In this document: positions 12,564 through 60,686 of the stretch, piece by piece
How positions within the stretch are numbered: the first letter of the stretch is position 1
Layout of the letters: every line of letters starts with the position of its first letter
Assembly: GCF_001314875.1 (NCBI RefSeq)
Contig: NZ_LJZS01000010.1
Span: forward strand, 1 to 64,000
Reading direction: 5' to 3'
DNA length: 64,000 bases
Origin: Halomonas sp. HL-48
GTDB taxonomy: Bacteria > Pseudomonadota > Gammaproteobacteria > Pseudomonadales > Halomonadaceae
Made by a program: the position numbers and the translations under genes
The notes under the pieces: generated by a model
Told to the model about the DNA's origin: nothing
Databases searched by the model: none
What the model saw: only the letters and a program-made list of their open reading frames with translations

Positions 12564-14603
12564 TTACCCCTGCATCCGAACCTGTAGATGAGACGCTTCT
12601 TCGGGATGCTGCTTAACCCACTCCCGATACTCTTCGAGGCGTTGCTTATGCTCAGTCTCAATACGCTCGACTTCAGCCGCCGGCACGTAGTAATCGATAT
12701 CGTCGTTGGCTACGCGGGCGATAAAGGCAACAAACATACCGATACCACCGACAATCGCCAGCCACCAGATATGCCATACCAAGGCAAAACCAAAGATCAT
12801 CGAGAACAGACTGATCACCGGTCCGGCAATGGTGTTGCGCGGCATATGGATGTCCTGGTAAGGCCCAGTACCAATAGCTTCACGACCTTCCTGCTTCTGG
12901 CGCCAGAAATCATCAATACCGCTGATTTTGGGCAGATGCGCGAAGTTATAGAAAGGCGCAGGCGAAGAGGTTGCCCACTCTAGGGTACGGCCATCCCAAG
13001 GGTCACCGCTCAAGTCTGCATACTTCATGCTATGACGATTCTTGATGCTGACCGCCACCATGATCAGTGTCGACAAGATACCCAGCATGATGATACATGC
13101 GCCGATAAAGGCGACGATCATCATCGGCTGCCATTCAGTGGCTTCGTAAGACGACATGCGACGCACGGCCCCATCGAAGCTGAGCACATACAGCGGCATA
13201 AAGGCCATGAGAAAGCCGATCAACCAGCACCAGAAGCTGCGCTTGCCCCACTTTTCGTCGAGCTTGAAGCCAAACGCCTTCGGGAACCAGTAGTACATTC
13301 CCGCCATCATGCCGAAGACCACGCCGCCGATAATCACGTTGTGGAAGTGGGCGATAACGAACAGGCTGTTATGCAGCACGAAGTTGGCTGCCGGTAGCGA
13401 CAGCATCACACCGGTCATACCACCGATGGTAAAGACGATGATGAAACCGATGAGCCACAGCATGGGCACAGACAGCTCGATGCTGCCGCGGTACATGGTG
13501 AACAGCCAGTTAAATACCTTCACACCCGTGGGAATGGCAATGATCATCGTCATGATGCCGAAGAAGGCATTGACGTTGGCCCCCGCCCCCATGGTGAAGA
13601 AGTGGTGCAGCCATACGACAAACGACAGAATCGTAATCGCAACGGTCGCCCAAACCATGGTGGTATAGCCAAACAATCGCTTACGGGCGTACGTCGCCAC
13701 GACTTCAGAGAACACCCCGAAGGCCGGCAGAATCAGGATGTACACCTCAGGATGGCCCCAGGCCCAGATGAGGTTGACGTACATCATCACGTTGCCGCCA
13801 AGATCGTTGGTGAAGAAGTTCATCCCCAGGTAGCGATCAAGGGTCAGCAGTACAATCGTCGCGGTCAGAATCGGGAACGACGCGATGATCAGTACGTTGG
13901 CGCACAGCGATGTCCACGTAAAGATCGGCATGCGGAACATCTTCATGCCCGGCGCACGCATTTTCAGGATCGTCACGAAGAAGTTGATACCCGTCAACGT
14001 GGTCCCGATGCCGGATATCTGCAACGCCCATATCCAGTAATCGACCCCGACCCCGGGACTGTACTCAATCCCCGAGAGAGGCGCGTAGGCCAACCAGCCG
14101 GTGGTACCAAACTCGCCGATAAACAGAGACAGGTTGACGATCATCGCACCAGATACAAACAACCAGAAACTGAGGTTGTTCAGGAACGGGTAGGCAACGT
14201 CGCGAGCACCGATCTGTAGCGGAACGATCAGGTTCATCAAGCCGATGACCATGGGCATGGCCACGAAGAAGATCATGATCACGCCGTGGGTCGTGAACAG
14301 CTGGTCGTAGTGCTCCGGCGGCAGGAAACCCTCTGACCCGCCAGAGGCAATTGCCAACTGCAAACGCATCATCAGCGCTTCGCCAATACCGCGGATCAGC
14401 ATCACCAGGGCCACGATGAAATACATGATCCCGATCTTTTTATGATCGACCGAGGTTACCCACTCGCTCCACAGGTAGCCCCACTTGCGGTAGTAGGTAA
14501 CACCCCCTACCACTACCGCTCCGCCCAAGGCGGTCATGATCATGAGCGATACGATGATAGGATCGTAGAAGGGGATCGAGTCTAAACCGAGTTTTCCAAA
14601 CAT
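12564..14603 (-). CDS. cyoB: Cytochrome o ubiquinol oxidase subunit I
   Basis: The catalytic subunit, 679 residues with about 15 membrane helices, carrying heme b, heme o3 and CuB. The diagnostic stretches are [20 protein letters not shown] with a heme b His, [20 protein letters not shown] with the CuB His and the cross-linked Tyr, [12 protein letters not shown] with the paired CuB His, and [13 protein letters not shown] with the remaining heme ligands. Length and motifs are those of E. coli-type bo3 quinol oxidase. It oxidises ubiquinol, reduces oxygen and pumps protons. Confidence 0.98.
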
Positions 14604-33792: not shown

Positions 33793-33926
33793 ATCAGGCT
33801 CCTAAACGTAATATGGGCTTACGGATGCACCTTACATGGGAATCGCCCCGGCAGGCTATTGTTTCTGTCGTTGTTGACGACCTTGACACCCTTCAACGAC
33901 CCCTCGGCGCCAGGGTGGGAGCCAGC

Positions 33927-46594: not shown

Positions 46595-46610
46595 TGGCAA
46601 CCACTTTGCA
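46595..46610 (+). promoter_or_regulatory. Sigma-54 (-24/-12) promoter of the narK-type gene
   Basis: TGGCAACCACTTTGCA has the invariant GG and GC exactly 10 bases apart and TGGCA/TTGCA blocks of the sigma-54 consensus. Transcription would start about 46622, giving a 145-nt leader. Together with the NtrC-type site upstream it suggests control by nitrogen limitation. Confidence 0.75.
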
Positions 46611-46674
46611 TAGTATTGGGCAGTGGTGGTAGGCGTGGACCAGGCCCTTCTGGGTACGAGTGCGTCGAACCTGA

Positions 46675-46690
46675 CCTTCAATGAAGAAGG
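46675..46690 (+). promoter_or_regulatory. ANTAR-type hexaloop hairpin in the narK leader
   Basis: CCTTC and GAAGG form a 5-bp stem around AATGAA, a six-base loop with A at position 1 and G at position 4, the known recognition feature of ANTAR antiterminators. A second 5-bp hexaloop hairpin (CTGCG-TGATTG-CGCAG, 46714-46729) follows but lacks A1/G4. The downstream gene at 48186 encodes an NIT-ANTAR protein. I do not see the usual T-tailed terminator. Confidence 0.55.
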
Positions 46691-46766
46691 CATGTTCTCG
46701 TGAACCGATGACGCTGCGTGATTGCGCAGGGTATTGAACTCGTAATAGGACCCGTGAGGCCATCCC

Positions 46767-48119
46767 ATGGATATTCGCAACAAAGCCAACCGCATCCGGT
46801 TGCTCAATTTTTCGACGCCGCAAATGCGCGCGTTCCATTTTTCCTAGTTTGCTTTCCACCTTTGCTTTTTCGGCTGGTTCGGCATCGCCCCGCTCATGGC
46901 GGTGGTGCGCGAAGATCTTGCCCTTACCCAGACCCAGATTGGCAACACGATCATTGCTTCGGTCGCCATTACCGTCATCGTCCGCCTGGTGATTGGCGTA
47001 TTGTGTGACCGGCTGGGGCCGCGCAAAACCTATTCGGGGCTGCTGCTGCTCGGCTCGATCCCGGTCATGGGCATTGGCCTGGCCGATAGCTTCGAGACCT
47101 TCCTCATGGCGCGGCTCGCCATCGGCGCCATCGGCGCATCATTCGTGATTACCCAGTACCATACCTCTATCATGTTCGCGCCCAACGTCGTTGGCACAGC
47201 CAACGCCACCAGCGCGGGCTGGGGCAACCTGGGCGGGGGTACCACCCAGATCGTGATGCCGCTGATCTTTGCCGGCATGCTGATGCTGGGCGTCAACGAA
47301 GCCCTGGGCTGGCGGTTAGCCATGGTCGTGCCGGGCGTCGTGCTGTTCTTTACCGGCATTGCCTATTGGCTGTTTACCCAGGATGCCCCTGATGGCAACT
47401 TCGACGAGCTGCGCGCTCGCGGCGAGTTACCGCCCGCCAGTGGCGAACACGGCGCGCTACAAAGCTTTATCGTAGCGGCGAAGGATATTCGCGTATGGGC
47501 CCTGTTTGTGGTGTATGGCATTTGTTTTGGCGTAGAGCTGACGATCAACAACATTGCCGCGATCTACTTTTTCGATAATTTCGAGCTGACGCTTGCAACC
47601 GCCGGTATGATTGCCGGGCTATTTGGGCTGATGAATATTTTCGCGCGTACCCTGGGCGGCATGTTTTCCGATCTGTTCGCCAAACAGGGCGGCCTGAAAG
47701 GACGCGTGCGCTGGTTATTGGTGGCGCTGATTTGCGAAGGGATTGCGCTGGTTGCCTTCTCGCAGATGCATGTATTAAGCCTGGCCATCGGTATCATGCT
47801 GGTCTTCAGCCTGTTTGTGCAGATGGCCGAGGGCGCGACCTATGGCGTGGTTCCGTTCATCAATAAAAAGGCCCTGGGGGCAGTGGCCGGTATCGTCGGC
47901 GCGGGCGGCAACGTCGGTGCGGTGTCCGCTGCCTTTCTGTTCCGGAGCGAAAGCCTGACCTATCAGCAGGGGCTGCTCTATCTTGGCCTGGCGGTATTGG
48001 CGCTGGCCTCATGCGTGTTGCTGGTGCGCTTCAGCGATGCGCAGGAAGCCGAAGAAGCCATGGCCTATCGCGAGGCGGTGGGTGACGACACAGGTGCCGG
48101 TGCCCTATCGTTACGTTAA
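46767..48119 (+). pseudogene. narK: NarK/NasA-type nitrate-nitrite transporter with in-frame amber stop
   Basis: An MFS transporter of the nitrate/nitrite porter family, expected to import nitrate for assimilation. Reading from ATG 46767 (GAGG seven bases upstream) gives MDIRNKANRIRLLNF, then STPQMRAFHFS, a TAG at 46845-46847 (codon 27), and then FAFHLCFFGWFGIAPLM in the same frame. Relatives have Trp at that point, so TGG to TAG explains it. Restart at the ATG at 46896 would lose the first helix. The rest (12-helix layout, GNLGGGTTQIVMPLIF, GAGGNVGAVSAAFLF) is intact. It precedes nasR. Could be a true recent null, a polymorphism or a sequencing error. Confidence 0.85.
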
Positions 48120-48185: not shown

Positions 48186-49448
48186 ATGTCTTCAGCTCAA
48201 CAGTTACTGTTAACCGCCAAACGTTGCGATATCGACAACCTGACCCATCTGGCCACGACGTGCGACATTGTCGGCGATATCAGCCACTTCATCCATATGC
48301 TGCAGCGTGAACGGGGGGCGTCGACGATTTTTCTCGTCTCCCAGGGTGCGCGCTTCAAGGAGCGGCGTGCGACTTACCAGCAGCACAGTCAGGATGCTGA
48401 AGCCCTGATGCGCCGTCGGCTCGAGGCGTTGAGCCAGGAAGCCAGGCCTCAGGCGGCGGCCCGCCTACTGCGCCGGATTGCCACGGTTTGGGCCGCGCTG
48501 GACGAGCTTGGCGCATTGCGCCACGCCATCGACACCTTTGCCATTACTCCCGATGCGGCCACTCAGGCGTTTAACCAGTTGACCAGCGGGTTGCTGGCGA
48601 TCGTCTTCGAAGCCGCCGATACAGCCGTCGATCCGGATATCACCCGCGCGCTGGTGGCCATTTTTCATTTGATGCAGGGTAAAGAGTTGGCCGGGCAGGA
48701 ACGCGCCTGCGGTGCCTTTGGCTTTACCCAGGGGTACTTTGACGATGCCCACGGTGCCCTGCTCACCCAGCTTATCAATGACCAGCAACGCTGCTTTGAT
48801 ACCTTTGAGGAGTTTGCCTCACCCGACGCCCAGGAGTGCTGGCAGCAGGAACTGTCGCCGCGCACCCTGTCCGGCATCGGCCATTTGCGCGACATAGCCT
48901 GCCAGCGGCGTTCACATCCTGATTCGTCGGATTCGCTGGGAGAAACCTGGTACGAGCTGACCACCTTGCGTATCGACAGCATCAAGAACGTCGAGGACAC
49001 GCTCAATGCCCAGCTCACCGCGCTTTGCCATCGCAAGATCGATCAGGCCAACGCCGCGCTGGAAAAAGCCAAGACAGACCCCTGCACAAACACCCCGGCT
49101 CCCTGCGCACAGCTGCTGGCGTTGACCAGCGCCGAGCCGCTGGGCGACCTGACCGCCAGTGCGCTCAACTCGCCACTGGGCCGGTCGCTCATCGAGCTTA
49201 CCCAGGCCCAGTCCAGCCGCCTGCAAGGGCTCAGCGACGAGCTGGAAAACACCCGAAAAGCGCTGCGCGAGCGCAAGCTGATCGAGCGGGCGAAAGGCCT
49301 GATCATGGCTCACCAGGGAATGACGGAGGAAGAGGCTTATCGCTTTCTGCGTACCACCTCCATGAATCAGAGCAAAAGCATGGCGGACATGGCCCAGTCG
49401 ATTCTCGACCTTTCCACCATATTAAAGCGCAAGGAAGCCCAACCCTGA
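48186..49448 (+). CDS. nasR: Nitrate/nitrite-responsive antiterminator, NasR-like (NIT + ANTAR)
   Basis: A 420-residue cytosolic regulator with an N-terminal NIT nitrate-sensing domain (about 35-290; HMLQRERGASTIFLVSQG) and a C-terminal ANTAR RNA-binding domain (about 345-415; LIERAKGLIMAHQGMTEEEA). NasR in Klebsiella binds nitrate and then leader RNA hairpins to prevent early termination of the nas operon. An AAGGAAA site precedes the ATG. It follows the disrupted transporter by 66 bp and its likely RNA target lies in that gene's leader. Confidence 0.92.
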   Translation: MSSAQQLLLTAKRCDIDNLTHLATTCDIVGDISHFIHMLQRERGASTIFLVSQGARFKERRATYQQHSQDAEALMRRRLEALSQEARPQAAARLLRRIATVWAALDELGALRHAIDTFAITPDAATQAFNQLTSGLLAIVFEAADTAVDPDITRALVAIFHLMQGKELAGQERACGAFGFTQGYFDDAHGALLTQLINDQQRCFDTFEEFASPDAQECWQQELSPRTLSGIGHLRDIACQRRSHPDSSDSLGETWYELTTLRIDSIKNVEDTLNAQLTALCHRKIDQANAALEKAKTDPCTNTPAPCAQLLALTSAEPLGDLTASALNSPLGRSLIELTQAQSSRLQGLSDELENTRKALRERKLIERAKGLIMAHQGMTEEEAYRFLRTTSMNQSKSMADMAQSILDLSTILKRKEAQP

Positions 49449-55738: not shown

Positions 55739-55855
55739 AAAGTGGTATCCGAATATCTCAGAAAACAAAAACCCGGAAAGGATCACGCGCTCACCGTGCC
55801 GTCACAGCTCCGACGGCCATCATCACACCAACCTTAACCATAAAGGTGTAACAAA

Positions 55856-56836
55856 ATGACGCGTTCAAAATTCACTCTACGTTCGACCCTAACCGCCATC
55901 GGACTTGTGTCTGGTATGGCCGTTGCCACCACTTCTCACGCTGACTATCCAGAACAGGATGTCCGCCTAATCATTCCTTACGGACCTGGCGGCGCCACGG
56001 ACATCATTTTCCGCCTTATTTCCCAGGAAGCGGAAAAAACGCTGGGCGAGTCCATCGTCCCCGTCAACATGGCAGGCGCAGGGGCGACGCTTGGCTCTCG
56101 TGACGTGAAAGATGCCGATCCAGATGGCTACACGGTACTCGGCAGCCACGATACCATTGCCCTTTCAAAGCTTGCTGGCACTGTTGACTATTCCTACGAC
56201 GCCTTTGAACCTGTTGCCCTGCTGACACAGACCATCAATATTCCCACGGCTCACTCCGACCACCCTGTCCAGAGTGCTGACGAAATTGCCGATTACGTGA
56301 GTGAGAACCCAGGCGACGTTCGCTTTAGCATGATTCCCGGTTCGACCGATCACTTCTTCTGGGCGCAATTTTTCCAGGAAGCCGGCATTGAGATGGATGA
56401 CGTGAGGCTTGTCGGCTATCCAGACACTGGTGAACAAGTGTCTGCTTTAATGGCAGAGGAAGTCGACTTCGCCATGTTCAATCTGCCTTCTGGTGGTTCT
56501 TACTTTGAAGATGGCAGCTTCCGACCTTTAGGCATTGCCCACCCTGAGCGTCTTGAAAGCATGCCCGATGTCGAAACGCTGCGTGAACAGGGCATCGAAA
56601 TGGATCACTCCACCAGCCGTGGCATTTTCGCACCGAAAGGAACACCGCAGGAAGTCATCGATACCATCGCCGAAGCCTACGGCGAAGCACTGGAAAATGA
56701 AGAAGTACAGAGCCGCATCGAAAATGAATTTGGTTCTGTGGTGCAGTTTCTTGCCGGTGAGGACTATCACGAATTCCTTGAAGACAACGAAGCCGCCCTT
56801 TCAGCCGCCGCTGAAAACATTGAATTCCAGAACTGA
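55856..56836 (+). CDS. tctC: Tripartite tricarboxylate transporter substrate-binding protein
   Basis: A 326-residue periplasmic protein: signal peptide (about 1-29, ending SHA), then the TctC/Bug fold with VRLIIPYGPGGATDIIFR and VPVNMAGAGATLGSRDVKDA near the ligand site. It delivers a carboxylate-type ligand to TctAB. The C-terminal part is very acidic. A strong hairpin follows at 56843-56873 and may favour this gene's message over the membrane subunits. Confidence 0.92.
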   Translation: MTRSKFTLRSTLTAIGLVSGMAVATTSHADYPEQDVRLIIPYGPGGATDIIFRLISQEAEKTLGESIVPVNMAGAGATLGSRDVKDADPDGYTVLGSHDTIALSKLAGTVDYSYDAFEPVALLTQTINIPTAHSDHPVQSADEIADYVSENPGDVRFSMIPGSTDHFFWAQFFQEAGIEMDDVRLVGYPDTGEQVSALMAEEVDFAMFNLPSGGSYFEDGSFRPLGIAHPERLESMPDVETLREQGIEMDHSTSRGIFAPKGTPQEVIDTIAEAYGEALENEEVQSRIENEFGSVVQFLAGEDYHEFLEDNEAALSAAAENIEFQN

Positions 56837-56842
56837 TGACGT

Positions 56843-56873
56843 CCTCCCTGGCCCTAATTCAAGGCCAGGGAGG
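56843..56873 (+). promoter_or_regulatory. Intergenic stem-loop between tctC and tctB
   Basis: CCTCCCTGGCC (56843-56853) and GGCCAGGGAGG (56863-56873) form a perfect 11-bp stem with a 9-nt loop. There is no T-tract, so it is not a standard terminator. Such hairpins after binding-protein genes often stabilise the upstream mRNA and give excess binding protein. Here that role is inferred. Confidence 0.7.
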
Positions 56874-56889
56874 CCGGGAGGCTTCTATC

Positions 56890-57360
56890 ATGCTAACCCT
56901 AACCAAAGACCGCGCCTTGGCGTTGGCGCTATTGCTTATTGTTGCGGTCATGTGGATCGCATCGGGTGATATCCGCCCACCTACCGCTTGGCAGCCTTAT
57001 GGGTCAGCACTTTTTCCGCGTATTTTATTGGTCGTGATTGGGCTGTTGTCACTATTGATTTTAGTGCGTTCCCTATTGGTAAAAGTGCCTGAACAGGCGG
57101 GGCTGGGCACCCGCATCAACGAATGGTTTCAACGTCGACGTACCATTCTTGCACTCTTTCTACTGTTTGGGCTTTATGCAGCACTCCTTCCGTTAGTGGG
57201 CTATATCGCTGCCACCCTGGGCTTCCTGATCGCGTCCTTTGCACTCCTCATGGGCATTGATACACGTCGCAAGTGGGTTATTAACCTCACGATCAGTTGC
57301 ACCTTGGCTATCGCGATATTTGTCATTTTTCGCTATGGCCTGAATGTCTGGCTGCCCTAA
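56890..57360 (+). CDS. tctB: Tripartite tricarboxylate transporter small membrane subunit
   Basis: A 156-residue protein with four membrane helices in the TctB pattern (ALALALLLIVAVMWI, ILLVVIGLLSLLILV, TILALFLLFGLYAAL, and a C-terminal helix). Start 56890 is chosen because GGGAGG precedes it; the upstream frame from 56836 would run through the hairpin. It lies 15 bp before tctA. Confidence 0.9.
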   Translation: MLTLTKDRALALALLLIVAVMWIASGDIRPPTAWQPYGSALFPRILLVVIGLLSLLILVRSLLVKVPEQAGLGTRINEWFQRRRTILALFLLFGLYAALLPLVGYIAATLGFLIASFALLMGIDTRRKWVINLTISCTLAIAIFVIFRYGLNVWLP

Positions 57361-57375
57361 CCTGTGGAGTCAATA

Positions 57376-58890
57376 ATGACGAACTTTTTTCTCCAAGCCC
57401 TCACTGAGGTGGGCTCACCATCGGTTTTGGGCCTCATACTTATCGGCGTGCTGTTCGGTATCATCGGCGGCAGCATTCCCGGCTTTACTGTCACCATGGC
57501 GATTCTGGTGGTATTTCCGTTCACCTTTGCCATGGACCCCGTTAGCGGTGTGTCGTTGATGGTCGGCGTGTTTGTAGGGGGATACTCCGGCGGGATCGTG
57601 TCCGGCGTTATGCTCGGTATTCCCGGCACGCCTTCCTCTATCACCACCGTCTATGACGGCTACCCCATGGCGCAAAAAGGCGAGCCGGGGCGCGCCCTCG
57701 GTATAGGGGTTGCGGCCTCTTTCCTGGGCACCCTGATCAGCGTGGCGGTACTGGTCTTTTTCGGGCCGTTAATTGCCAGCTTCAGCATGAACTTTCGCCC
57801 GTGGGAAATCACCGCGCTGATTGTATTCGCACTGACACTGGTCGCGGGGCTATCAAATGGTGCGCTACTTAAAGGCCTACTCGCCGCTGCCTTGGGGCTT
57901 TTGATCACCACCGTTGGCTATGATCGTAACAGCAACCTTCGCTTTGATTTTGGCCTACCTGCCTTGGGTTCAGGGTTTGAAATTCTACCGGTCATGATTG
58001 GTATTTTTGCTTTTTCTCAGTTACTTGGAAACATTGAAAAAATAAAAGATGAAGGTCACGACGCTAAAAAAGTCGACACCAATGTCACCATTCCCTACGG
58101 CCAAATTATCAAGGACATGGCGGGGCAAAAGCTAAATACCCTACGCTCTTCATTAATAGGCAGCCTCGTCGGTGCATTGCCGGGTACTGGCGGCACGGTG
58201 GCTAACTTTTTAAGCTACGACCAAGCCAAGAAGTTCTCCCGTCATCCGGAAGAATTTGGCACGGGTACGCCTAGCGGCATCGTTGCTTCGGAAGCGTCCA
58301 ACAGCGCGGTGGCGGGCGGTGCCTTTGTCCCCACACTGGCACTCGGCATCCCTGGCGATCTTCCCATGGCGATCATGATGGGCGTACTGATTCTCCACGG
58401 CATTACGCCGGGGCCGATGATGTTTGAACAAAACCCGGTATTGGTGGGTGCCATTTACGCCAGCCTGCTGATTGGTGCGGTGGTCATGGTGCTATGTAAC
58501 CTGCTACTGGTGCGCTGGTTTGCCAAGATATCGTTGATCCCCCAACAGATCCTCGTTCCCGTTGTGTTAATGCTGTGTGCCATTGGCGCTTATGCCCTGA
58601 ATAACAACCTGTTTGATATTTGGGTGCTGTTTATTTTTGGCGTTATCGGCTACCTACTTTGGAAAGCCGAGGTGCCTCTTACACCGCTAATACTGGGCGT
58701 CGTACTTGGCGAAAACCTTGAGCGGCAGCTATTTCGTGCCCTGGAACTCAATGACAACTGGTTAACATTCTTAACCCGCCCTCTCTCGGCTCTTTTCTTG
58801 GCACTGGCCATCGCCTCCATCCTGTTTTCTCTCTATCAGGATCGAAAGATACGGCGTTTAAAACAGGCGGCCCAACAAGAAAACGTTTGA
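57376..58890 (+). CDS. tctA: Tripartite tricarboxylate transporter large membrane subunit
   Basis: A 504-residue channel subunit with about twelve helices and the TctA signatures GGSIPGFTVTMAILVVFPFT, GIPGTPSSITTVYDGYPM and ALPGTGGTVANFLSYDQAKK. It uses the proton or sodium gradient to import the ligand captured by TctC. ATG 57376 follows TGGAG. The next gene is 19 bp away, so the hydrolase is likely in the same transcript. Confidence 0.95.
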   Translation: MTNFFLQALTEVGSPSVLGLILIGVLFGIIGGSIPGFTVTMAILVVFPFTFAMDPVSGVSLMVGVFVGGYSGGIVSGVMLGIPGTPSSITTVYDGYPMAQKGEPGRALGIGVAASFLGTLISVAVLVFFGPLIASFSMNFRPWEITALIVFALTLVAGLSNGALLKGLLAAALGLLITTVGYDRNSNLRFDFGLPALGSGFEILPVMIGIFAFSQLLGNIEKIKDEGHDAKKVDTNVTIPYGQIIKDMAGQKLNTLRSSLIGSLVGALPGTGGTVANFLSYDQAKKFSRHPEEFGTGTPSGIVASEASNSAVAGGAFVPTLALGIPGDLPMAIMMGVLILHGITPGPMMFEQNPVLVGAIYASLLIGAVVMVLCNLLLVRWFAKISLIPQQILVPVVLMLCAIGAYALNNNLFDIWVLFIFGVIGYLLWKAEVPLTPLILGVVLGENLERQLFRALELNDNWLTFLTRPLSALFLALAIASILFSLYQDRKIRRLKQAAQQENV

Positions 58891-58909
58891 TCGTTAAAAG
58901 GACTCTGAT

Positions 58910-60517
58910 ATGCAACACGATGCACTCTACTACCCCAGCGCCTCGCGACGTATGGCAACCTTCGGCAAACGTGGCATGGTCGCGACCTCTCAGCCATTGG
59001 CGGCGCAAGTGGGTATCACTATTTTGCAGCAAGGCGGTAATGCCATTGACGCCGCCATTGCCACTGCAGCGGCATTGACGGTGGTCGAACCCACGTCCAA
59101 CGGGATTGGCAGCGATGCCTTCGCTATTGTGTGGGTAAACGGTAAGCTGCATGGCCTGAATGCCAGTGGGCCTGCGCCTCAAGCGGCAACCATTGAAAAG
59201 CTCAAATCACTAGGCCATGACGCGATACCCAACCACGGCATGTTGCCTGTCACGGTACCCGGCGCTCCCGCTGCCTGGTCGGCATTGTCTGAGCGCTTCG
59301 GCAAGCTGCCGTTTGCTGAGTTGTTAGCTCCGGCCATCGCCTTGGCCGATGAAGGCTTCCCCGTTTCTCCCGTCATCCATCAAATGTGGAAGGACGCTTT
59401 TACTAACTACTCAGCCTATGACGACGCCTCCTTCAAACCCTGGTTCGACACCTTTGCACCCGAAGGTCGAGCGCCGCAGCCCGGTGAGCTTTGGCGCTCT
59501 GAAGGTCATGCAAAAAGCCTAAAAGCGATTGCTGACACCCACGCCAACGCGTTTTACAAAGGCGAACTGGCCGACGCCATTGATGCTTTTTCCCGCGAAA
59601 GTGGCGGTCTATTACGCAAAGAAGATCTTGCGGCTTACCAGCCGGAGTGGGTCGATCCGATTAGCGTGAAATACAAAGGCCACGACATCTGGGAAATCCC
59701 CCCCAACGGCAGCGGCATGATCGTGCTGCAAGCGCTGGGTATGCTTGAGCGTCTTGGCGAAGCAGGATCGGACCCGGTCGAAACGCTCCACCGCCGCATT
59801 GAAGCCACTAAACTGGCTTACGTTGATGGTTTCGCGCACGTTACCGATCTGGATGCCATGCGCCCCACTGTTGATCAGATGCTGGACGATGATTACTTAA
59901 AAGCGCGTGCCGCGTTGATCGGTGAACAGGCCGTTGACCCCAAGCACGGCAACCCGATCAAGGGTGGCACCGTGTATCTTGCGACGGCCGACAGCGACGG
60001 CAATATGGTGTCGCTGATTCAGAGCAACTTCAAAGGTTTTGGCTCTGGCATGGTGGTACCTGGGACCGGCATCAGCCTGCAAAACCGCGGCTGGTCGTTC
60101 TCACTCGACCCGCAGCACCCGAATGCACTCGCCCCCGGCAAGCGCACCTACCACACCATCATCCCGGGCTTTATTACCAAGGATAACCAGGCCGTTGGGC
60201 CCTTTGGTGTGATGGGCGGCTACATGCAGCCCCAAGGCCATGTGCAAGTGGTGACGGCAATGCTGGAGGATCAACTTAATCCCCAGGCGGCGCTTGATAT
60301 GCCACGCTGGAAGTGGACCCAAGGCAAGACCATCGAAGTCGAAGCCGATTTCCCCAATCACTTAGCGCTTGCCCTGGCCCGGCGTGGCCACAACATCGTC
60401 AAGGTTGCCGACTCCATCAGCTTTGGCCGTGGTCAAATCATTCTGCGCAATGCTGACACCGGCGTGCTCCAAGGCGGCACCGAGCCACGCACCGATGGGG
60501 CTGTCCTTCCCTGGTAA
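58910..60517 (+). CDS. Gamma-glutamyltransferase-family hydrolase (YwrD/HpxW-like)
   Basis: A 535-residue Ntn-hydrolase without signal peptide, nearest in look to YwrD and the oxamate amidohydrolase HpxW. The autocleavage and catalytic Thr is 354 in KGGTVYLATADSDG, followed by the GFGSGMVVPGTGISLQN substrate loop and the C-terminal TYHTIIPGF. It is cytosolic, unlike true periplasmic Ggt. Being last in the Tct operon, it probably hydrolyses the imported compound. The substrate could be a gamma-glutamyl amide or an oxamate-type amide. Confidence 0.85.
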   Translation: MQHDALYYPSASRRMATFGKRGMVATSQPLAAQVGITILQQGGNAIDAAIATAAALTVVEPTSNGIGSDAFAIVWVNGKLHGLNASGPAPQAATIEKLKSLGHDAIPNHGMLPVTVPGAPAAWSALSERFGKLPFAELLAPAIALADEGFPVSPVIHQMWKDAFTNYSAYDDASFKPWFDTFAPEGRAPQPGELWRSEGHAKSLKAIADTHANAFYKGELADAIDAFSRESGGLLRKEDLAAYQPEWVDPISVKYKGHDIWEIPPNGSGMIVLQALGMLERLGEAGSDPVETLHRRIEATKLAYVDGFAHVTDLDAMRPTVDQMLDDDYLKARAALIGEQAVDPKHGNPIKGGTVYLATADSDGNMVSLIQSNFKGFGSGMVVPGTGISLQNRGWSFSLDPQHPNALAPGKRTYHTIIPGFITKDNQAVGPFGVMGGYMQPQGHVQVVTAMLEDQLNPQAALDMPRWKWTQGKTIEVEADFPNHLALALARRGHNIVKVADSISFGRGQIILRNADTGVLQGGTEPRTDGAVLPW

Positions 60518-60686
60518 TATCTCACCCCTAACACTGGCTCTCCGCCGTATTGCCGTTGCAGGCAAACGGCGGTTGGGATGGCTAATTATCTGCTTATGGC
60601 GGGCTTTTGCTGGGTTGAACTGGCTATCCACGGTTAACCATCGCATCATGGCTCTCCGTATCTGCCAGGTCCTTGCCCGTTCTATT

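Follow-up and report, generated by a model that had tools for sequence, protein, structure and literature searches.

A probable recent nonsense codon in the only recognised narK gene of Halomonas sp. HL-48

Why does the nitrate transporter gene of Halomonas sp. HL-48 carry an amber codon near its start, and does the gene still yield a transporter? The window analysed here, a stretch of 64,000 nucleotides of contig NZ_LJZS01000010.1, contains a narK gene in which codon 27 is TAG (Table 1); this codon is in phase with the ATG at 46767 and with the terminal stop at 48117-48119, and the reading frame crosses it without a frameshift (MDIRNKANRIRLLNFSTPQMRAFHFS*FAFHLCFFGWFGIAPLMAVVRE...). A sequence-only reading had reported this unshifted in-frame TAG, and the given sequence confirms it; the peptide MRAFHFS, which that reading gave ahead of the TAG, is in frame; it begins at codon 20, and the start codon lies at 46767. 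Because codon 27 is a stop, the list of open reading frames shows just the 407-codon portion from 46896. The sequence comparisons point to a private, very recent TGG to TAG nonsense mutation as the likely explanation, one that would abolish the only recognised NarK of this genome; the stop most likely reflects an ordinary loss of function and not a novel reading of the genetic code, and a base-call error is the main rival to the nonsense allele.

Table 1. Features of the narK locus, in window coordinates
Feature	Position	Strand	Details
narK gene, NarK-type (NNP) nitrate/nitrite transporter	46767..48119	+	450 codons, codon 27 is a stop
In-frame amber TAG	46845..46847	+	codon 27; TGG (Trp) in relatives
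Ribosome-binding site GTGAGG of the true start	46754..46759	+	duplex energy -5.7 kcal/mol
Candidate restart ATG, codon 44	46896..46898	+	duplex energy -2.7 kcal/mol
Sigma-54-type promoter-like element, TGGC-N7-TTGC	46595..46610	+	GG-N10-GC spacing; GG and GC invariant in 11/11 upstream regions
Strongly conserved leader RNA region	46630..46714	+	mostly invariant, 11 aligned sequences
Hairpin CCUUC-AAUGAA-GAAGG	46675..46690	+	hexaloop with A at position 1 and G at position 4
NasR-like regulator, NIT and ANTAR domains, intact	48186..49448	+	PF08376 E 1.6e-47; PF03861 E 1.3e-20

The gene was compared with Halomonadaceae relatives (Vreelandella, Halomonas, Billgrantia, and others), namely the best 80 of 380 from a scan of genome contigs. 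In all of these best 80, codon 27 is TGG and the frame is open across the stretch, and all 80 have an ATG and an open frame from the equivalent of position 46767. The tryptophan that the sequence-only reading had given for codon 27 is present throughout, and its claim of an interrupted gene survives the alignment, with the relatives starting at 46767 and not at 46896. A degenerate pattern bearing the TAG was found in one of 201 genomes of the family, the match being the window's own genome; because the residues on either side are fixed in this pattern, a stop next to altered residues would escape it. Apart from the TAG, narK has a single residue of its own in a column that is otherwise invariant, F404L (codon 404, 47976-47978; Leu here, Phe in 80 of 80 relatives), and at least one such private residue occurs in 21 of the 81 sequences. 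Within the genus, some transporter match was obtained in 74 of 82 genomes and none in the other eight; a full-length match of at least 85% identity is present in 65 of the 82, the window's genome included (rows counted by eye), and the other 64 have an open frame of at least 453 codons without a stop, compared with 423 here (also by eye). Broken transporter copies occur in two genus genomes of low completeness (G031 and G074), and genus genome G003 retains no more than a 46-residue remnant containing a TAG. Genus genome G032 has nirB over the cut-off, yet no match to the transporter; the transporter may have been lost more than once within the genus (compare G032 and G003).

The remainder of the gene shows no decay, and the stop is absent from the close relatives examined, as in a recent nonsense allele. 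A crude branch estimate on three taxa (the window and the two nearest genomes fetched, G016 and G006; Nei-Gojobori) assigned 46.3 synonymous and 3.7 nonsynonymous changes to the window branch of narK, an omega of 0.022, next to 0.039 and 0.023 on the two sister branches; narK on the window branch is under normal purifying selection, and the very recent loss suggested by the sequence-only reading fits this value. About 167 nonsynonymous changes would be expected on a fully neutral branch and about 5 under constant constraint, against the 3.7 observed; in a simple Poisson model, which presumes clock-like change along the branch and a function that was truly lost, the 95% bound on the unconstrained share of the branch is about 2.6%. 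If the TAG inactivates narK, this simple model would place the inactivation within roughly the final 3% of the branch. Among the 19 genes compared, synonymous divergence on the window branch ranges from 0.06 to 0.44; single stops in the relatives' aligned pieces of gst (one, in G006), M23 and the FAD protein (two each, both relatives) probably lie upstream of the true starts. Private nonsense alleles, or fresh pseudogenes, are an ordinary event in bacterial isolates, and the narK stop resembles them in affecting one base in one strain with no further decay; we name no point of difference. As a caveat, an undecayed gene would be expected just as much from an erroneous TAG or from a product that is still functional.

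In the sister L002 the changed base is part of a CCTGG site, and CCTGG is found in 29 of the 80 relatives; such a context would suit deamination of a methylated cytosine on the opposite strand. A Dcm-type deamination hotspot was rejected because the genome lacks the enzyme: PF00145 has no match there, vs. matches in 10 of 14 control genomes. The absence of a C5-cytosine methyltransferase family match extends over the window's own whole genome (G000).

A base-call or assembly error, with an intact gene in the living strain, is an unlikely explanation. It would be in keeping with a TAG found in this genome alone of the 201 searched, and with a gene and pathway otherwise free of decay; against it, the region looks clean, with most conserved ORFs intact, and the genome is listed as 100% complete with 0.02 contamination. 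Relatives' ORFs of at least 120 residues that were conserved in another relative and matched the window were intact there in 44 of 50 (G016), 42 of 49 (G006) and 49 of 56 cases (G073). Flagged in all three sets were narK and one ORF at 12621; this ORF and another flagged at 33822 proved to be merely misplaced starts in the mechanical ORF list (narK, 12621 and 33822 were examined singly; the three sets hold 3, 5 and 5 further flagged ORFs). The region is without sign of many errors, and one wrong base is possible. In this single genome sequence a strain polymorphism, which the sequence-only reading also proposed, would look the same as a fixed recent loss, and so would a base-call error.

If the TAG is real, a functional protein could still arise by restart downstream or by readthrough, both of which the sequence-only reading had entertained; neither gains by the comparison. 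Restart at 46896, giving a shortened, still working transporter, is very improbable: the remaining 407 codons are open and constrained on the window branch, but the ribosome-binding site of this ATG is weak (-2.7 kcal/mol, a value reached by 41.5% of the 1021 plus-strand ATGs of the window, vs. -5.7 kcal/mol for the start at 46767, reached by 13.1%; both computed against the anti-Shine-Dalgarno end), all 80 relatives keep the 43 codons that precede it, and relatives do not begin there. No other in-frame ATG, GTG or TTG occurs between the TAG and 46896. At the true start, GTGAGG is found in 10 of 11 aligned upstream sequences and GAGAGG in the remaining one. The restart product would also miss the segment before codon 44, which falls in a predicted helix at residues 18-51, and would presumably drop the first helix of the transporter. 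This helix comes from an AlphaFold model built on 12 sequences (mean pLDDT 46.6, low confidence). A solved structure was sought as a map of TM1 without success: phmmer, started from the protein of a relative, and hmmsearch, built on 12 sequences, gave no relevant match (three matches, all synaptojanin, E 0.28). It is thus the family, together with the weak AlphaFold model, that puts codons 27-44 in the first helix.

Low-level readthrough or suppression of the amber codon, giving some full-length transporter, is likewise very improbable. The frame continues without a shift and the branch is normally constrained, as readthrough would allow; against this, a CTA anticodon is absent from all 56 tRNA genes found, the TAG is conserved in no examined relative, and the portion of the window inspected yielded no other recognised gene with an interior in-frame TAG. 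All 56 Rfam tRNA places have an ARAGORN gene, the anticodon count applying to the assembled sequence; tRNA-Ile(GAT) and tRNA-Ala(TGC) are absent from the assembly, so that the tRNA set is incomplete and unassembled tRNA genes exist. These two are probably missing through unassembled ribosomal operons. It is also barely conceivable that narK still gives a working or regulatory product by leaky readthrough or restart, with nitrate uptake deliberately throttled and the pathway kept under selection.

With its one internal TAG read through by the search tool, the whole frame scored 313.7 bits with TIGR00886, over the cut-off of 311.7, and the uninterrupted 407-residue part alone scored 284.6, below it. 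This places the product in the NarK/NNP branch of the MFS family, of which E. coli NarK is a described transporter (PMC4432589); the position beside a NIT-ANTAR regulator gene, on a contig with nitrate-assimilation genes, agrees with this assignment. The gene differs from the family in the TAG at codon 27, and no solved structure was matched by its sequence. Across the genome TIGR00886 had two matches, of which the interrupted gene is over the cut-off and the other is a 32-bit partial; the transporter protein, used as query against its own genome, returned one match only and no other copy. A nitrate-type ABC ATPase over the cut-off was not found in the genome (87 ABC matches, best 199 bits vs. 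291.8). Judged by these searches, narK is the only recognised NarK-type nitrate transporter of the genome; some anion uptake is conceivable, since two formate/nitrite-family channels are present.

The control region and the regulator of narK appear to be in order, as the sequence-only reading had maintained: the promoter-like and leader elements are conserved in the 11 aligned sequences, and the regulator is an open frame that contains both the NIT and the ANTAR domain of NasR-type proteins. The promoter-like element was recognised by the sigma-54 consensus. The conserved leader is likely to be the target of the NIT-ANTAR regulator; its hairpin, with stem and loop A and G invariant in 11 of 11 sequences, agrees with ANTAR targets described as having a hexaloop whose first and fourth letters are A and G (PMC3369931). 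One hairpin of the two-hairpin ANTAR motif was recognised in the leader. The leader's folding energy by itself is unremarkable (z -0.65 and -1.60), support from covariation is weak (2 of 42 pairs), and no Rfam family matched the leader up to E 5, the sole match being a chance hit to mir-204 elsewhere. The arrangement recalls the Klebsiella nas operon with NasR antitermination, as presented in PMC3369931, in its NIT-ANTAR protein, sigma-54-like promoter, and conserved leader with one ANTAR-type hexaloop hairpin; in contrast to Klebsiella, the regulator gene follows directly behind the transporter, and a second hairpin and terminator were not identified here. The leader at 46620-46766, with one ANTAR-type hairpin and no Rfam family, may be an unlisted ANTAR target.

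The genes for nitrate and nitrite reduction appear intact. Between 18 and 27 kb downstream of the start of narK, the same contig carries genes for a PP2C phosphatase-kinase, sumT, a nasA-like molybdopterin oxidoreductase, an FAD protein and nirB; all are long open frames, nirB scoring 1052 bits against a cut-off of 578. With the nasA-like oxidoreductase, of which a 906-residue part was scanned, no NCBIfam model reached its curated cut-off (440.5 against 1100 for NasC, 444.6 against 666 for formate dehydrogenase alpha), and its name, taken from context, is therefore tentative. Pathway decay as the cause of the stop was rejected, the pathway genes being open and constrained; nirB (omega 0.033) and the NIT-ANTAR gene (omega 0.031) are under strong constraint on the same branch, and thus no decay of the pathway accompanies the TAG, a point that counts against the loss of NarK.

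Taking the base as real, the single change from TGG to TAG at codon 27 would interrupt narK; translation from 46767 would stop after 26 residues and leave no transporter, nitrate uptake would be impaired, and the lost translation of narK may also lower expression of the downstream regulator gene. Both the gene family and the type of event are known, the latter being ordinary microevolution. The literature search, judged by titles and abstract openings, found no report of a natural narK nonsense allele and none of a pseudogenised nitrate transporter in Halomonas nitrate assimilation. A real stop would make this strain a clean natural knock-out of its only recognised nitrate transporter, caught before any decay and with the nitrate and nitrite reduction genes intact; this bears on strain physiology and on annotation, where the gene should be marked as disrupted.

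Elsewhere in the window, a segment of about 4.9 kb (55740-60594) is absent at the same place in the three relatives compared (G006, G016 and G073), in which the matches that end near 55.7 kb and resume near 60.6 kb are separated by few bases or none. From their translations, the genes in this segment presumably encode a TctC-like binding protein, a TctA-like permease and a gamma-glutamyltransferase-like protein.
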